In this document: positions 31,617 through 36,302 of the stretch, in pieces
Position numbering within the stretch: position 1 is the stretch's first letter
Layout of the letters: every line of letters starts with the position of its first letter
Source of the DNA: Actinomycetota bacterium
Lineage (GTDB): Bacteria > Actinomycetota > Actinomycetes > Nanopelagicales > Nanopelagicaceae
Direction: 5' to 3'
Length of the DNA stretch: 64,000 nucleotides
Assembly (NCBI GenBank): GCA_026392935.1
Contig: JAPLBE010000018.1
Coordinates: forward strand, 62,001-126,000
The notes under the pieces: generated by a model
What the model was told of the DNA's origin: nothing
Databases searched by the model: none
The model's input: only the letters and a program-made list of their open reading frames with translations
Program-made: the position numbers and the translations under genes

Positions 31617-32066
31617 TTGAAAATCAAAAGGATTATTCTGATTGGCATCTTGATTCTCAGCACATCCATTCCAAGCTCTTGGGCTGAACCGCCAGTGCTT
31701 GGTGATCAGAACCAAGGCATTCCAACAGAAATGGCAATGCGGTTCTTCTTCTCGACTATTTGCGAAGGAGTTTCCGATCTTCCTCATAAGTCAGCACACT
31801 TCCCAGGCACGGTTAATGTTCAGGCTAGAACTACATGTCCTGGAAAGGGCGTCGAAATATCTAGTCGATTGACTCGAACTTATCGCGGTGTTTCAACGTA
31901 TGTCTCAAAAAGTAGCTACGGGGAGAATAGAACCTCGGTGAATCTTTCTATGAAATGCATCTGGAAAAAAGGAATGAAAAAGATTAGGTATGAAATCAAG
32001 TCAACACATAGGCTTTCGAATGGCCGAGTTGGTGTTACCCTCAACTACAGCAATCTTGAATGTTGA
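31617..32066 (+). CDS. Small secreted protein of unknown function
   Basis: 149 aa from a TTG start at 31617 backed by a strong AGGAGG six bases upstream. The N-terminus MKIKRIILIGILILSTSIPS is a signal peptide, probably cleaved after SSWAE or nearby. The mature part has four cysteines (CEG, CPGKG, CIW and the final C) and a strand-rich pattern (VNVQARTTCPGKGVEISSRL), suggesting a small disulfide-bonded beta fold. The family is not recognised. It is divergent from the leuA leader. Confidence 0.65.
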   Translation: MKIKRIILIGILILSTSIPSSWAEPPVLGDQNQGIPTEMAMRFFFSTICEGVSDLPHKSAHFPGTVNVQARTTCPGKGVEISSRLTRTYRGVSTYVSKSSYGENRTSVNLSMKCIWKKGMKKIRYEIKSTHRLSNGRVGVTLNYSNLEC

Positions 32067-32385
32067 TGGGAGAATGATGTACTACCGCGGATTGAAAGAC
32101 ACACCCGGCGATTATCGGGTTGAGACAACATTCAGTTTGCACAATCGGCAGATGCAATTTATTTTGAATTTTCCAATTATAAAAATTCTAGTCTCTGAAA
32201 TTCTTGTACGCCAAGGGAAAATATTCCTACGCCCATATAAAGTTGACCCATCAAAACCCGAGCAATACTGGATCGAGGGATTTAAGGTACGAAATAAGAG
32301 CCAGAGGCAGGATGGGACCCTTCATTCTGCTGGCGGGGTTACGCGATTTAGCTAGAGAAAATTCTTATTCAATCAAGACCCTGGA
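32067..32385. other. Gene-poor stretch with ORF-like remnants
   Basis: Between the secreted protein and heliorhodopsin lie 319 bp without a convincing gene. Reading frames here change protein-like quality from place to place: GLKDTPGDYRVETTF in one frame, FEFSNYKNSSL in another, and KGKYSYAHIKLTHQNPSN in a third. This pattern would fit a decayed C-terminal part or second copy of a secreted protein, but no family supports it. An ORF from 31990 to 32355 crosses the stretch and starts inside the upstream gene. Confidence 0.3.
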
Positions 32386-33153
32386 TTATTGAGGTGGGAT
32401 TAAGGTCCCCGAGAAGATCTGCCACGCAAGTGCAGATTTAGCAACGAGTGAGAGCGTTATATAGGTCTTCTCTCCTCGTAAATAATCTGACCACTTTCCA
32501 ACCTTCTTATATTGGAGGTATTGAACAATGGCAAAGGTATTAAAGAGAAGAAATATTGAGAACACAATGCCGTAAACAAATGCAGGAGCTTTTGTATCCC
32601 CTGGGCCACCGATAGCAAGTACATAGAACAAGAGTGCGAGCCAAGGAATGGCACCGGCAATGCAACCGAAGATATATGGAAGCCATCCACCATTTCCTGG
32701 CTCTTCATACTTCTCTTGCAACCAGCCAAAGAGAATCATTGAGGCATTGACACCAAAGAGGGCGATGATTGCGACAACATCGGAGACGCCAGTAATGAGT
32801 GCAATTAAAACAATCATCACTGATGAGCTAATTGAATATTCAAGCCATCTGAAGTAGTTGCGATGTGCAGCAAGTCCTGCCGTATAGCGCGGGAAGAATT
32901 GTGGGCTTGCAACTAAAAAGTGGAAGAAGGCAGAAAGACCTAAGAAGATTGCAACAGTGGCTCCGATTGGGGCCTCAAGAAGAGTGACAGGTTCAGCAAA
33001 ATCACTTCCCGGAGGTCCTGCCGCGTAGCGGGCAACGATTGGGAGCGTGAAGTCGCTCGAAAGGATAAGTACCACCACCATCTGAACGAGGTGGAAGAAA
33101 CCTGCAATGAGGTTGTAGTTACGAATCTTCTTAGTATTGATCTCTTTAGCCAT
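32386..33153 (-). CDS. Heliorhodopsin
   Basis: 255 aa retinal-binding seven-helix protein. The diagnostic residues sit where expected, offset by two from the type protein 48C12: retinal lysine K239 in SLVAKSALAWQIF, S235 four residues earlier, counterion E105 in FRWLEYSISSS, and cavity histidines H21 and H78. The short basic N-terminus and loops fit the reversed topology (N-terminus inside). Heliorhodopsins do not pump ions well and are thought to sense light or regulate enzymes. It follows glnA2 by 36 bp and has its own -10 TAGCCT 6 nt before the ATG. It is not a type-1 rhodopsin. Confidence 0.95.
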   Translation of the reverse strand: MAKEINTKKIRNYNLIAGFFHLVQMVVVLILSSDFTLPIVARYAAGPPGSDFAEPVTLLEAPIGATVAIFLGLSAFFHFLVASPQFFPRYTAGLAAHRNYFRWLEYSISSSVMIVLIALITGVSDVVAIIALFGVNASMILFGWLQEKYEEPGNGGWLPYIFGCIAGAIPWLALLFYVLAIGGPGDTKAPAFVYGIVFSIFLLFNTFAIVQYLQYKKVGKWSDYLRGEKTYITLSLVAKSALAWQIFSGTLIPPQ

Positions 33154-33165
33154 GAATAAAGGCTA
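33154..33165 (-). promoter_or_regulatory. Leaderless promoter -10 of heliorhodopsin
   Basis: TAGCCT (minus strand, 33160-33165) is followed by six bases and then the ATG at 33153, the local leaderless pattern. No good -35 is seen. The gene can thus be transcribed alone as well as by read-through from glnA2. Confidence 0.5.
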
Positions 33166-33189
33166 CAAGTGATACTCGAGAAAAATCGG

Positions 33190-34518
33190 TTACAGGACCG
33201 GCAAGTACCGATCTAATTCATAGGCACTTACCTGACGGCGATAATCCTGCCATTCGGCACGCTTGTTGCGCAGGAAGTATTCAAATACATGCTCTCCCAA
33301 AGTCTCGCGGACAAGCTCGCTCTTTTCCATCACAAGAATTGCCTCTTCTAGATTTGAGGGAAGCAGCTGCGTATCACTTGATGGCTCCAGAATGTATTTC
33401 TTTTCAATTCCCTTCAGGCCCGCAGCCAACATAACTGCATAGGCAAGATATGGATTACATGCAGAATCTGGAGAACGGAATTCAATGCGAGTTGAATTCT
33501 CTTTCTTAGGTTTGTACATAGGAATACGTACTAGTGCCCCACGATCATTGTGGCCCCAGTTAATAATTGATGGAGCTTCCCCGCCGCCTTGAAGTCGCTT
33601 ATAAGAGTTGACCCATTGATTTGTAATCGCAGTAATTTCTGCCGCATGCTTCAAAATTCCGGCGATGAATTGGCGACCGACAGTTGAGAGATTGAGCTCT
33701 GCTTTCTCATCATAGAAAGCATTCTTCTCGCCCTCAAACAACGATACGTGGGTGTGCATTCCAGATCCTGGATGATCAGTAAATGGTTTTGGCATGAAAG
33801 ATGCATAGAACCCTTGGTTAAGGGCAACTTCTTTAATCACATGTCGGAAAGTCATGATGTTATCGGCAGTACTTAACGCATCTGCATAACGAAGATCGAT
33901 CTCTTGCTGGCCAGGTGCGCCCTCGTGGTGACTGAATTCAACAGAGACGCCCATGGCTTCTAACAATGTAATTGCTTGGCGGCGGAAATCGTGTCCAACA
34001 ACAGCAGGTGTGTGATCGAAGTAGCCACCTTGATCTACAGGAACAGGTGCAACACCTTTTTCTGGTTGTGATTTAAAGAGGAAAAATTCAATTTCTGGAT
34101 GGGTGTAACAGGTATAACCCATCTTGGCGGCCTTATCTAAAGTGCGACGAAGAACATTGCGAGGATCGGCTGGTGATGCTTCTCCACTTGGCAAGGTAAT
34201 GTCGCAGAACATCCGCGCTGCCCCTTGTGCTTCTGCGCGCCATGGCAAGATAGTAAAAGTTGCAGGATCTGGCTTAGCCAACATATCTGACTCTGATTGA
34301 CGAGCGAATCCTTCGATGGCAGAACCGTCGAAACCGATACCTTCTTCAAATGCATTTTCGAGTTCGGCAGGAGCGATAGCAACAGACTTCAAATATCCAA
34401 GTACATCTGTAAACCAGAGGCGAATAAATCGAATGTCACGTTCTTCAATTGTGCGAAGAACGAATTCTTGCTGCTTGCTCATATTCTCGTGATGCGAGTT
34501 CTCGTTCTGTGGGGACAT
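33190..34518 (-). CDS. glnA2: Glutamine synthetase, GlnA2 type
   Basis: GSI-family enzyme of 442 aa. FVLRTIEERDIRFIRLWFTD and GIGFDGSAIEGFARQSESD match mycobacterial GlnA2. Metal and substrate sites are in EIEFFLF, SFMPKPFTDHPGSGMHTH and RIEFRSPDSACNPYLA. The C-terminal region lacks the adenylylated tyrosine motif of the GSI-beta type, so GlnE control is not expected. Two starts are possible: ATG at 34518, 6 nt after a -10 CACGAT, or ATG at 34482, matching the family N-terminus. A GlnR-like box overlaps the promoter. Heliorhodopsin lies directly downstream. Confidence 0.94.
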   Translation of the reverse strand: MSPQNENSHHENMSKQQEFVLRTIEERDIRFIRLWFTDVLGYLKSVAIAPAELENAFEEGIGFDGSAIEGFARQSESDMLAKPDPATFTILPWRAEAQGAARMFCDITLPSGEASPADPRNVLRRTLDKAAKMGYTCYTHPEIEFFLFKSQPEKGVAPVPVDQGGYFDHTPAVVGHDFRRQAITLLEAMGVSVEFSHHEGAPGQQEIDLRYADALSTADNIMTFRHVIKEVALNQGFYASFMPKPFTDHPGSGMHTHVSLFEGEKNAFYDEKAELNLSTVGRQFIAGILKHAAEITAITNQWVNSYKRLQGGGEAPSIINWGHNDRGALVRIPMYKPKKENSTRIEFRSPDSACNPYLAYAVMLAAGLKGIEKKYILEPSSDTQLLPSNLEEAILVMEKSELVRETLGEHVFEYFLRNKRAEWQDYRRQVSAYELDRYLPVL

Positions 34519-34524
34519 GGCTAC

Positions 34525-34556
34525 ATCGTGCCAAAGCCACGTTACGGCTGTGTTAC
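34525..34556 (-). promoter_or_regulatory. glnA2 promoter with GlnR-like box
   Basis: On the minus strand GTAAC (34552-34556), six bases, GTAAC (34541-34545) fits the actinobacterial GlnR half-site pair (GTnAC-n6-GnAAC). It overlaps the -35 position of a -10 CACGAT (34525-34530), which is 6 nt from the ATG. The site falls just after the nadE stop. GlnR itself is not in the window. Confidence 0.5.
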
Positions 34557-34560
34557 AAAA

Positions 34561-36228
34561 TTAGAGTTCGCGCCATTTACTGGTCATTGGAAGCCTGCGA
34601 TCCTTACCAAAAGCACGCTTAGAGACCTTGGTGCCAGGTGGATACTGACGGCGCTTGTACTCGGCCTTATCAACCATCCCAATGACACGGACTACTAAAT
34701 CTTTATCAAATCCTGCAGCAATCAATTCGTCATGACCCATATCGTCATCAACGTAGGCCATTAAAACTTTGTCGAGAATTTCATACTCTGGAAGAGAATC
34801 AGAATCTTTCTGATCAGGGCGAAGTTCGGCGCTTGGTTCTTTTGTAATTGAATTCTCTGGAATCGGTGGGGTTTCACCCGCAGCTTTCGCTACCGAATTG
34901 CGCCAGCGAGAAAGTGCCCAGACATCGGTCTTGTAAATATCTTTAATGGGCGCATAGCCACCGACAGCATCTCCGTACAAAGTTGAATATCCGCAGGCAA
35001 GCTCTGATTTGTTTCCCGTTGCCAGCACAAGATGCCCGTGCTGATTAGAGATTCCCATCAGAGTTGTTCCACGAACACGGGCTTGCAGATTCTCTTCTGC
35101 TAATCCAGTGAGCTCTACTTGTTTGCGGAAAGCATCGACCATCGGCTGAATCTCAATAACGCTATAGCCAAGCCCGGTGTTTTTCGCCAGCGCATCTGCA
35201 TCTGCTAATGAATGTTCGGATGAATACTTACTTGGCATACCCACGCCATGTACTTGCTCTGGACCAAGGGCATCAACGGCAAGTGCTGCAACAAGTGCTG
35301 AATCGATTCCACCAGAGAGGCCAACGAGAACAGATTTAAATCCATTCTTAATCACATAATCGCGAAGCCCGACAACGATGGCGTTCCAGATCTCTTCTTC
35401 GTCGCCAAGTCGATGCGCAATTCCTGGAGTCAGCGCTTTTTCTATCACTACTGGTGATTCAGAGATGACAACATCGGGTGTAGAAGTTGCTGGCTCTACA
35501 TCAATGTCGACGAGCATGACACCGTCTTCAAACTGCGGTGCACGTGCAATAACTGAACCACTCTTATCTACAACAATGCTGTCGCCATCGAAAACCAAAT
35601 CATCTTGCCCGCCGGTCATATTTACATATGCCAGTGGGGCCTTGGCCTCGCGAGCGCGCTTAGTTACCATCGCAAGGCGCACGTCATCTTTATTGCGTTC
35701 ATAGGGAGAACCATTTGGCACGATAACCAAGCCAGGATTGCGCGCCGCAAGTTGGGCAGTGATTCCACCATCTATCCAGAGATCTTCACAGATTGCGATG
35801 CCCACATCGATGCCGTGAATACGAACAACGAGTGTCGAATTACCGGCCTTGAAATTACGGTACTCATCGAAGACTCCATAATTCGGAAGATGACACTTTG
35901 CATAACGGGCTTTGATTTCACCTCCGCTGATAACTGCCACCATGTTTTGTGGCTGGCCATCTACTTGGTCTAAGTAACCAACAATGCTGACAATCTCATG
36001 ATCGAGTTCTGCGGCAAGGGCTGCAACTGCGCTCTTACTTGCCACCTGAAATGAAGGGCGGAGGGCTAAATCTTCAACTGGATATCCGGTTAACACCATC
36101 TCGGGAAAAATAACTACATGCGCACCAGCTGCCGTGGCCTGCGCAGCGGATGCCTTTACAAGCGCAGCATTGCCCGCAAGGTCGCCCACGGTGGGGTTTA
36201 CCTGCGCCAGCGCCAATCTCAACTTCAT
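34561..36228 (-). CDS. nadE: Glutamine-dependent NAD+ synthetase
   Basis: 555 aa. The N-terminal nitrilase-type glutaminase domain has VVIFPEMVLTGYPVED (Glu), YAKCHLPNYGVFDEYR (Lys) and IAICEDLWIDGG (Cys). The C-terminal synthetase has the P-loop LVGLSGGIDSALVAALAVD. It amidates nicotinic acid adenine dinucleotide using ammonia released from glutamine, the product of the adjacent glutamine synthetase. The -10 TACTCT is 6 nt from the ATG. Confidence 0.95.
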   Translation of the reverse strand: MKLRLALAQVNPTVGDLAGNAALVKASAAQATAAGAHVVIFPEMVLTGYPVEDLALRPSFQVASKSAVAALAAELDHEIVSIVGYLDQVDGQPQNMVAVISGGEIKARYAKCHLPNYGVFDEYRNFKAGNSTLVVRIHGIDVGIAICEDLWIDGGITAQLAARNPGLVIVPNGSPYERNKDDVRLAMVTKRAREAKAPLAYVNMTGGQDDLVFDGDSIVVDKSGSVIARAPQFEDGVMLVDIDVEPATSTPDVVISESPVVIEKALTPGIAHRLGDEEEIWNAIVVGLRDYVIKNGFKSVLVGLSGGIDSALVAALAVDALGPEQVHGVGMPSKYSSEHSLADADALAKNTGLGYSVIEIQPMVDAFRKQVELTGLAEENLQARVRGTTLMGISNQHGHLVLATGNKSELACGYSTLYGDAVGGYAPIKDIYKTDVWALSRWRNSVAKAAGETPPIPENSITKEPSAELRPDQKDSDSLPEYEILDKVLMAYVDDDMGHDELIAAGFDKDLVVRVIGMVDKAEYKRRQYPPGTKVSKRAFGKDRRLPMTSKWREL

Positions 36229-36302
36229 TGTTCAAGAGTAGCGGGAGTAGAATTTGTGTCGACCCGGGGACCGCACCAGCGGCTTCGAGGCAGGAGATAC
36301 AA

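Follow-up and report, generated by a model that had tools for sequence, protein, structure and literature searches.

The genes for a glutamine-dependent NAD+ synthase (nadE), the glutamine synthetase GlnA2 and a heliorhodopsin (HeR) follow each other on the minus strand of an actinobacterial genome, and we consider it quite probable that each has a promoter of its own, supplemented by read-through, that glnA2 retains an inherited promoter controlled by the nitrogen regulator GlnR, and that HeR acts on the GlnA2 enzyme. The window, i.e., the whole stretch of 64,000 nucleotides that was analyzed, comes from an acI-type (Nanopelagicales) genome of 1.35 Mb; among named organisms, Candidatus Planktophila and IMCC strains are the closest to it. 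In freshwater, the acI Actinobacteria rank with the most abundant bacteria, and the role of heliorhodopsins is still debated.

Layout of the nadE-glnA2-HeR locus

The open reading frames of the window place the three genes in line, with gaps of 42 bp between nadE and glnA2 and 36 bp between glnA2 and HeR. From upstream to downstream, the features are:

36235..36240, minus strand: putative -10 of nadE, TACTCT, with leaderless spacing (TAnnnT at -12 in 58/59 relatives; present in the window)
34561..36228, minus strand: nadE, glutamine-dependent NAD+ synthase, 555 aa (Pfam NAD_synthase and CN_hydrolase; NCBIfam PRK13981, 686.7 bits)
34541..34556, minus strand: GlnR-type box GTAACACAGCCGTAAC, at -38 to -23 of the putative leaderless start (conserved in 80/80 relatives)
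34525..34530, minus strand: putative -10 of glnA2, CACGAT, 10 bp past the box and 6 nt before the ATG (spacing in relatives)
33190..34518, minus strand: glnA2 (442 aa), glutamine synthetase of type I, alpha kind, lacking the adenylylation segment (family searches, alignment)
33160..33165, minus strand: putative -10 of HeR, TAGCCT, 6 nt before the ATG (kept in 54 HeR copies)
32386..33153, minus strand: heliorhodopsin, 255 aa (PF18761, NCBIfam HeR, diagnostic residues)

What the first-pass annotation had read in the sequence, namely the diagnostic residues, the 36 bp gap, nadE upstream, the box and an additional leaderless -10 for HeR (TAGCCT at 33165-33160), is all borne out. The HeR product matches PF18761 over positions 1-242 of 242 (E=7.6e-99, 330 bits) and NCBIfam HeR with 345 bits against a cut-off of 100, carries H21, H78, E105, S235 and the retinal lysine K239, and aligns over residues 7-253 with solved relatives such as 48C12 heliorhodopsin. 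Downstream of HeR are two small convergent genes on the plus strand (31617-32066 and about 32075-32355), the first with a signal peptide-like start in its product and no Pfam or NCBIfam match. Similar pairs are found in two relatives (L012 and L015), in L015 at a place that has no HeR.

A GlnR-type box in front of glnA2

The box falls in the gap that separates nadE from glnA2, centred near -30 of the putative leaderless start. Within the window alone it is not significant, as the loose pattern GTNAC-n6-GTNAC was matched in 42 of 100 shuffles, and a chance origin would be plausible from these data. It is the conservation of the box and its positions over the genome that make it significant and rule out chance. 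The first-pass annotation had set the conservation of the GTAAC pair as a check, and the box was present in every readable glnA2 locus of the relatives (80/80) in the form [GT]TAAC-n6-GWAA[CT], with the exact GTAAC-n6-GTAAC in 36 of them; in 14 the last C was replaced by T, which we counted as keeping the AC-n9-AC spacing. Besides, a -10-like hexamer begins exactly 10 bp after the box at all 80 loci, and at 79 of them it lies 6-7 nt before the ATG.

The box is found alike at loci with HeR, without HeR and where HeR cannot be judged. Even where cysK and cysE are located between nadE and glnA2, as in the HeR-less loci that were read, it remains directly before glnA2. That it is an element of HeR was discarded, since it persists at loci without HeR; the box belongs to glnA2 rather than to HeR or nadE. 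Outside the family but within the same class, 18 of 39 glnA2 loci had a box, 17 of them with the same 10 bp spacing, a combination that never appeared in shuffled upstream sequences. The boxes outside the family are mostly GTAAC-n6-GAAAC, the classical GlnR form.

The exact pattern GTAAC-n6-GTAAC occurs at only four sites in the 1.35 Mb genome, upstream of amtB, glnA1 and glnA2 and once without a nitrogen gene. Leaving out the glnA2 site, simple arithmetic gives a probability below one in a million that two of three random sites would fall at most 150 bp upstream of amtB or glnA1. The 22 exact sites of seven relatives include 13 that precede amtB, glnA1 or glnA2, and each of the seven genomes has such a site before amtB. 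The information lies in the positions alone, the raw box counts being no higher than those of a reversed control pattern; counts of the loose pattern were discarded as evidence of enrichment for the same reason, the reversed control being equally frequent.

The genome also encodes the regulator. A candidate GlnR (PF21695, 134.6 bits) aligns full length with solved GlnR-like chains, the whole DNA-binding domain included, and a neighbouring gene matches the mycothiol synthase MshD, an arrangement known from M. tuberculosis. Among 18 relatives, 16 had a GlnR match over the family cut-off. In one genome (G026, locus L071) the glnA2 box is kept and the GlnR match is weak (20 bits); either GlnR was lost or the assembly is incomplete.

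From this comparison of sequences, the box before glnA2 is very probably a real GlnR site, and nitrogen control of the glnA2 promoter via GlnR is strongly supported. GlnR likely takes the place of the -35, binding GTAAC-n6-GTAAC 10 bp upstream of the -10 of glnA2; a similar arrangement is that of the PhoB box, about 10 bp upstream of the -10. The promoter would be the inherited actinobacterial GlnR promoter, by which the cell would adjust glnA2 to the nitrogen supply, activation being more likely than repression.

The GTAAC repeat could instead be a site of MtrA, or one for which both regulators compete. MtrA is encoded in the genome (NCBIfam MtrAB_MtrA, 344.5 bits against a cut-off of 300), and in Streptomyces its motif is also a pair of repeats with an 11 bp period and MtrA can bind GlnR boxes in competition with GlnR. 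However, the exact sites are concentrated at amtB, glnA1 and glnA2, the second half outside the family mostly has the GlnR form GAAAC, and binding of GlnR at glnA2 has been shown experimentally in mycobacteria, so that we regard a role of MtrA at this box as unlikely.

Two observations were made at other boxes of this kind. In IMCC26103 and Ca. Planktophila lacus (L127 and L138), GTAAC-n6-GTAAC (site at about 1501) stands before the gene of a lipoprotein that resembles a transporter binding protein; this gene may belong to the nitrogen regulon as well. Eight genomes (L089, L126, L128, L129, L132, L134, L141 and L145) have in common a conserved stretch in their amtB leaders, which follows the GlnR-type boxes at about 80-120 bp and resembles CATCTTT-n-CCATCTCAA-n-GGCGAG. 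As to the window genome itself, neither the amtB nor the glnA1 leader had an Rfam match, and a known RNA element in them was discarded on that basis.

Three probable stacked promoters

Leaderless-type elements are common in this genome. Among the window genes of at least 150 aa (n=50), 20 carried TAnnnT at -12/-13 relative to the first ATG, compared with a rate of 1.35% per position elsewhere. Examples in the window are those at 33160-33165 and 36235-36240 and those upstream of 15565, 47891 and 50118. This points to widespread leaderless transcription in the Nanopelagicales lineage of the genome, so that the -10 of HeR argues for a promoter and not for a special mode of regulation. The nadE gene has its own leaderless -10 at 58 of 59 loci; at leuA the same element was found in 8 of 60.

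Upstream of HeR, TAnnnT is present at -12/-13 of the start in all 37 copies near glnA2, with a mean of 0.2 at other positions, and [TC]AnnnT is present at -12 in all 17 copies of the same kind at other loci. The element is also found in copies 412-961 bp away from glnA2 (TACATT at -13 in L024) and is kept in several unrelated genomic surroundings. In none of these 54 copies (37 near glnA2 and 17 elsewhere) did the 80 bp upstream contain a GlnR-type box. Of four more distant HeRs that were seen, three carry an AGGAG-like ribosome site in place of the element. HeR thus appears to be expressed from a portable promoter of its own, and since this promoter has its own -10 and no GlnR box, control by GlnR would reach HeR only by read-through. 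No terminator-like sites were found on the minus strand in the nadE-glnA2-HeR stretch, and read-through could therefore give longer transcripts as well. Judging from these upstream regions, nadE, glnA2 and HeR appear to have three stacked promoters, each starting from its own leaderless -10, and the expression of HeR is likely the sum of its own promoter and read-through from glnA2.

The published view is different, a single operon in which one promoter upstream of nadE drives the three genes. The short gaps, the lack of a minus-strand terminator between them, the promoter prediction of Cho et al. (2022) and class 1 metatranscripts that carry NAD+ synthetase, glutamine synthetase and HeR together all fit with it. 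Such an operon would have no internal promoters, yet conserved -10 elements precede both glnA2 and HeR: the GlnR box and the -10 stand directly before glnA2 at 80/80 loci, even with cysK-cysE in place of nadE, and each of the 54 HeR copies, in several genomic surroundings, has a -10 of its own. We consider the single promoter quite improbable.

These results divide an earlier suggestion, nitrogen control at a promoter shared by glnA2 and HeR. The glnA2 part stands, with a GlnR ortholog, a conserved box and the same box at amtB and glnA1. The sharing is not clear, HeR having its own conserved -10 without a GlnR box. Neither was this control a new contribution as such, because GlnR control of glnA2 was already known in mycobacteria; it is new only for the Nanopelagicales lineage and for the HeR context.

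Heliorhodopsin at and away from glnA2

Among 81 glnA2 loci, HeR is nearby in 38 (in 4 of these the gap is larger or other genes intervene), absent in 36 and cannot be judged in 7, and many of the relatives are metagenome bins, in which the absence of a gene is weak evidence. As to the conservation of gene order proposed as a check, the adjacency is kept at 38 of 74 decidable loci, over a broad clade, and the other 36 lack it.

The nadE gene adjoins glnA2 in 37 of 38 loci with HeR versus 4 of 33 without, a contrast that is strong in counts but reflects few independent changes on the tree. The single exception with HeR is L052, where a catalase-peroxidase-like gene on the opposite strand is located between nadE and glnA2. 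Other families of the class have nadE and glnA2 side by side but divergent, with HeR absent in the stretches seen, and the idea that nadE is an addition linked to HeR was discarded because of these HeR-less loci. As the box and the nadE neighbourhood both persist without HeR, they appear to be older than its arrival, and HeR would have been placed downstream of glnA2, within this older neighbourhood, in part of the Nanopelagicales.

The neighbourhood might still be a mere insertion site between glnA2 and leuA without functional meaning. Actually, 22 of the 30 genomes without HeR at glnA2 have one elsewhere, and the lysines described as binding glutamine synthetase are largely conserved in these HeRs too. 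K216, K217 and K220 of the ICL3 are present in the window HeR, and at other loci they are found in 18/18, 15/18 and 17/18 HeRs, respectively, for which reason they were discarded as a marker of HeRs linked to glutamine synthetase. Besides, the HeR copies look exchanged. In L009 GlnA2 is 98% identical to that of the window and HeR only 81%, which suggests that HeR was exchanged while the locus stayed fixed. The copies adjacent to glutamine synthetase do not group as one clade in the HeR tree either, and exchange or movement of HeR would fit both observations. By itself, then, adjacency says little about function. Against a mere insertion site stand the persistence of the adjacency at 38/74 decidable loci over a broad clade and the report that AbHeR binds AbGS directly and stimulates it in a light-dependent manner, and it is because of this published binding work that a functional pairing has support. 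A neighbourhood without meaning is a possibility to keep in mind, albeit the less probable one.

GlnA2 as a possible point of control

GlnA2 is found throughout the class, with an ortholog in 138 of 148 genomes, nearly always as one match each, and 64-76% identity to the orthologs in most other families. The nearest solved chains are about as long as GlnA2 and match it over its entire length. In the alignment of the two synthetases of the genome, the adenylylation segment is present in GlnA1 and absent from GlnA2. Since GlnA2 does not have this segment, another fast control would be useful to the cell. HeR probably acts after translation on GlnA2, as was shown for AbHeR and AbGS, and by analogy may adjust the activity of the window GlnA2 in light.

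We advance, tentatively, the idea that GlnA2 is a point with two inputs, nitrogen via GlnR on the gene and light via HeR on the enzyme. The HeR promoter would be free of nitrogen control and provide a steady base level, raised by read-through from glnA2 under nitrogen shortage, and given the missing adenylylation loop HeR could be the main fast control of GlnA2. Two controls can be told apart at glnA2, an old GlnR promoter that is there with or without HeR and a portable promoter of HeR. The single-promoter operon model is put in question, with exact sites given for cultured acI strains, and the published lysines that bind glutamine synthetase do not distinguish the HeRs at glnA2 from those at other loci.

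Comparison with known systems

The closest system is that of Actinobacteria bacterium IMCC26103, for which Cho et al. (2022) described the order panB, NAD+ synthetase, AbGS, AbHeR and discussed the link to NAD+ synthetase (PMC9529153). The same work reported direct binding of AbHeR to AbGS (Kd 6.06 uM) with light-dependent stimulation, tested the complementation of an E. coli glnA mutant by AbGS and predicted one promoter, upstream of nadE (PMC9529153). Bulzu et al. (2021; PMC8612252) found HeR on the same strand-specific transcripts as glutamine synthetase and NAD+ synthetase. The first-pass annotation had rightly treated the pair itself as known (PMC9529153), but the nadE link that it offered as a contribution is also in both papers, and the nadE-glnA2-HeR association is therefore not new. 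The IMCC26103 locus is like that of the window, with panB, nadE, glnA2, HeR and later leuA, the same 36 bp gap and K216, K217 and K220 in both HeRs. Identities are 87% for GlnA2 and 74% for HeR. The two differ downstream of HeR, where the window has the convergent small genes and IMCC26103 a Gfo/Idh/MocA gene. The adenylation sites were stated as conserved by Cho et al. (PMC9529153), whereas in our alignment with GlnA1 the window GlnA2 is without the segment. The GlnR box and the separate promoters found here were not reported for IMCC26103 (PMC9529153). The class 1 HeR transcripts of freshwater Actinobacteria (PMC8612252) show the same grouping of HeR, glutamine synthetase and NAD+ synthetase, with no promoter or nitrogen-control analysis in the portion of that paper at hand.

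On the side of nitrogen control, the comparison is with the GlnR regulon of mycobacteria and Streptomyces, with which the window genome shares an OmpR-type GlnR, the AC-n9-AC spacing and the targets amtB, glnA1 and glnA2. The GlnR box is GTnAC-n6-GTnAC in S. venezuelae and gTnAc-n6-GaAAc in S. coelicolor (PMC10704036), and the second half-site of the window, GTAAC, follows the former consensus and differs from the GAAAC of the regulon. GlnA2 of S. coelicolor acts on polyamines. Upstream of glnA2, GlnR binds in M. smegmatis (PMC3662644, PMC4222082), and in M. tuberculosis a GlnR site at -30 of glnA2 and a leaderless glnA2 start were reported, with glnA1 and glnA2 expression little changed in a glnR mutant (PMC4950008). 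In the window as in M. tuberculosis, the site before glnA2 lies close to -30 relative to a leaderless start (putative in the window), and the window differs from the mycobacterial and Streptomyces regulons in that a heliorhodopsin gene follows glnA2.
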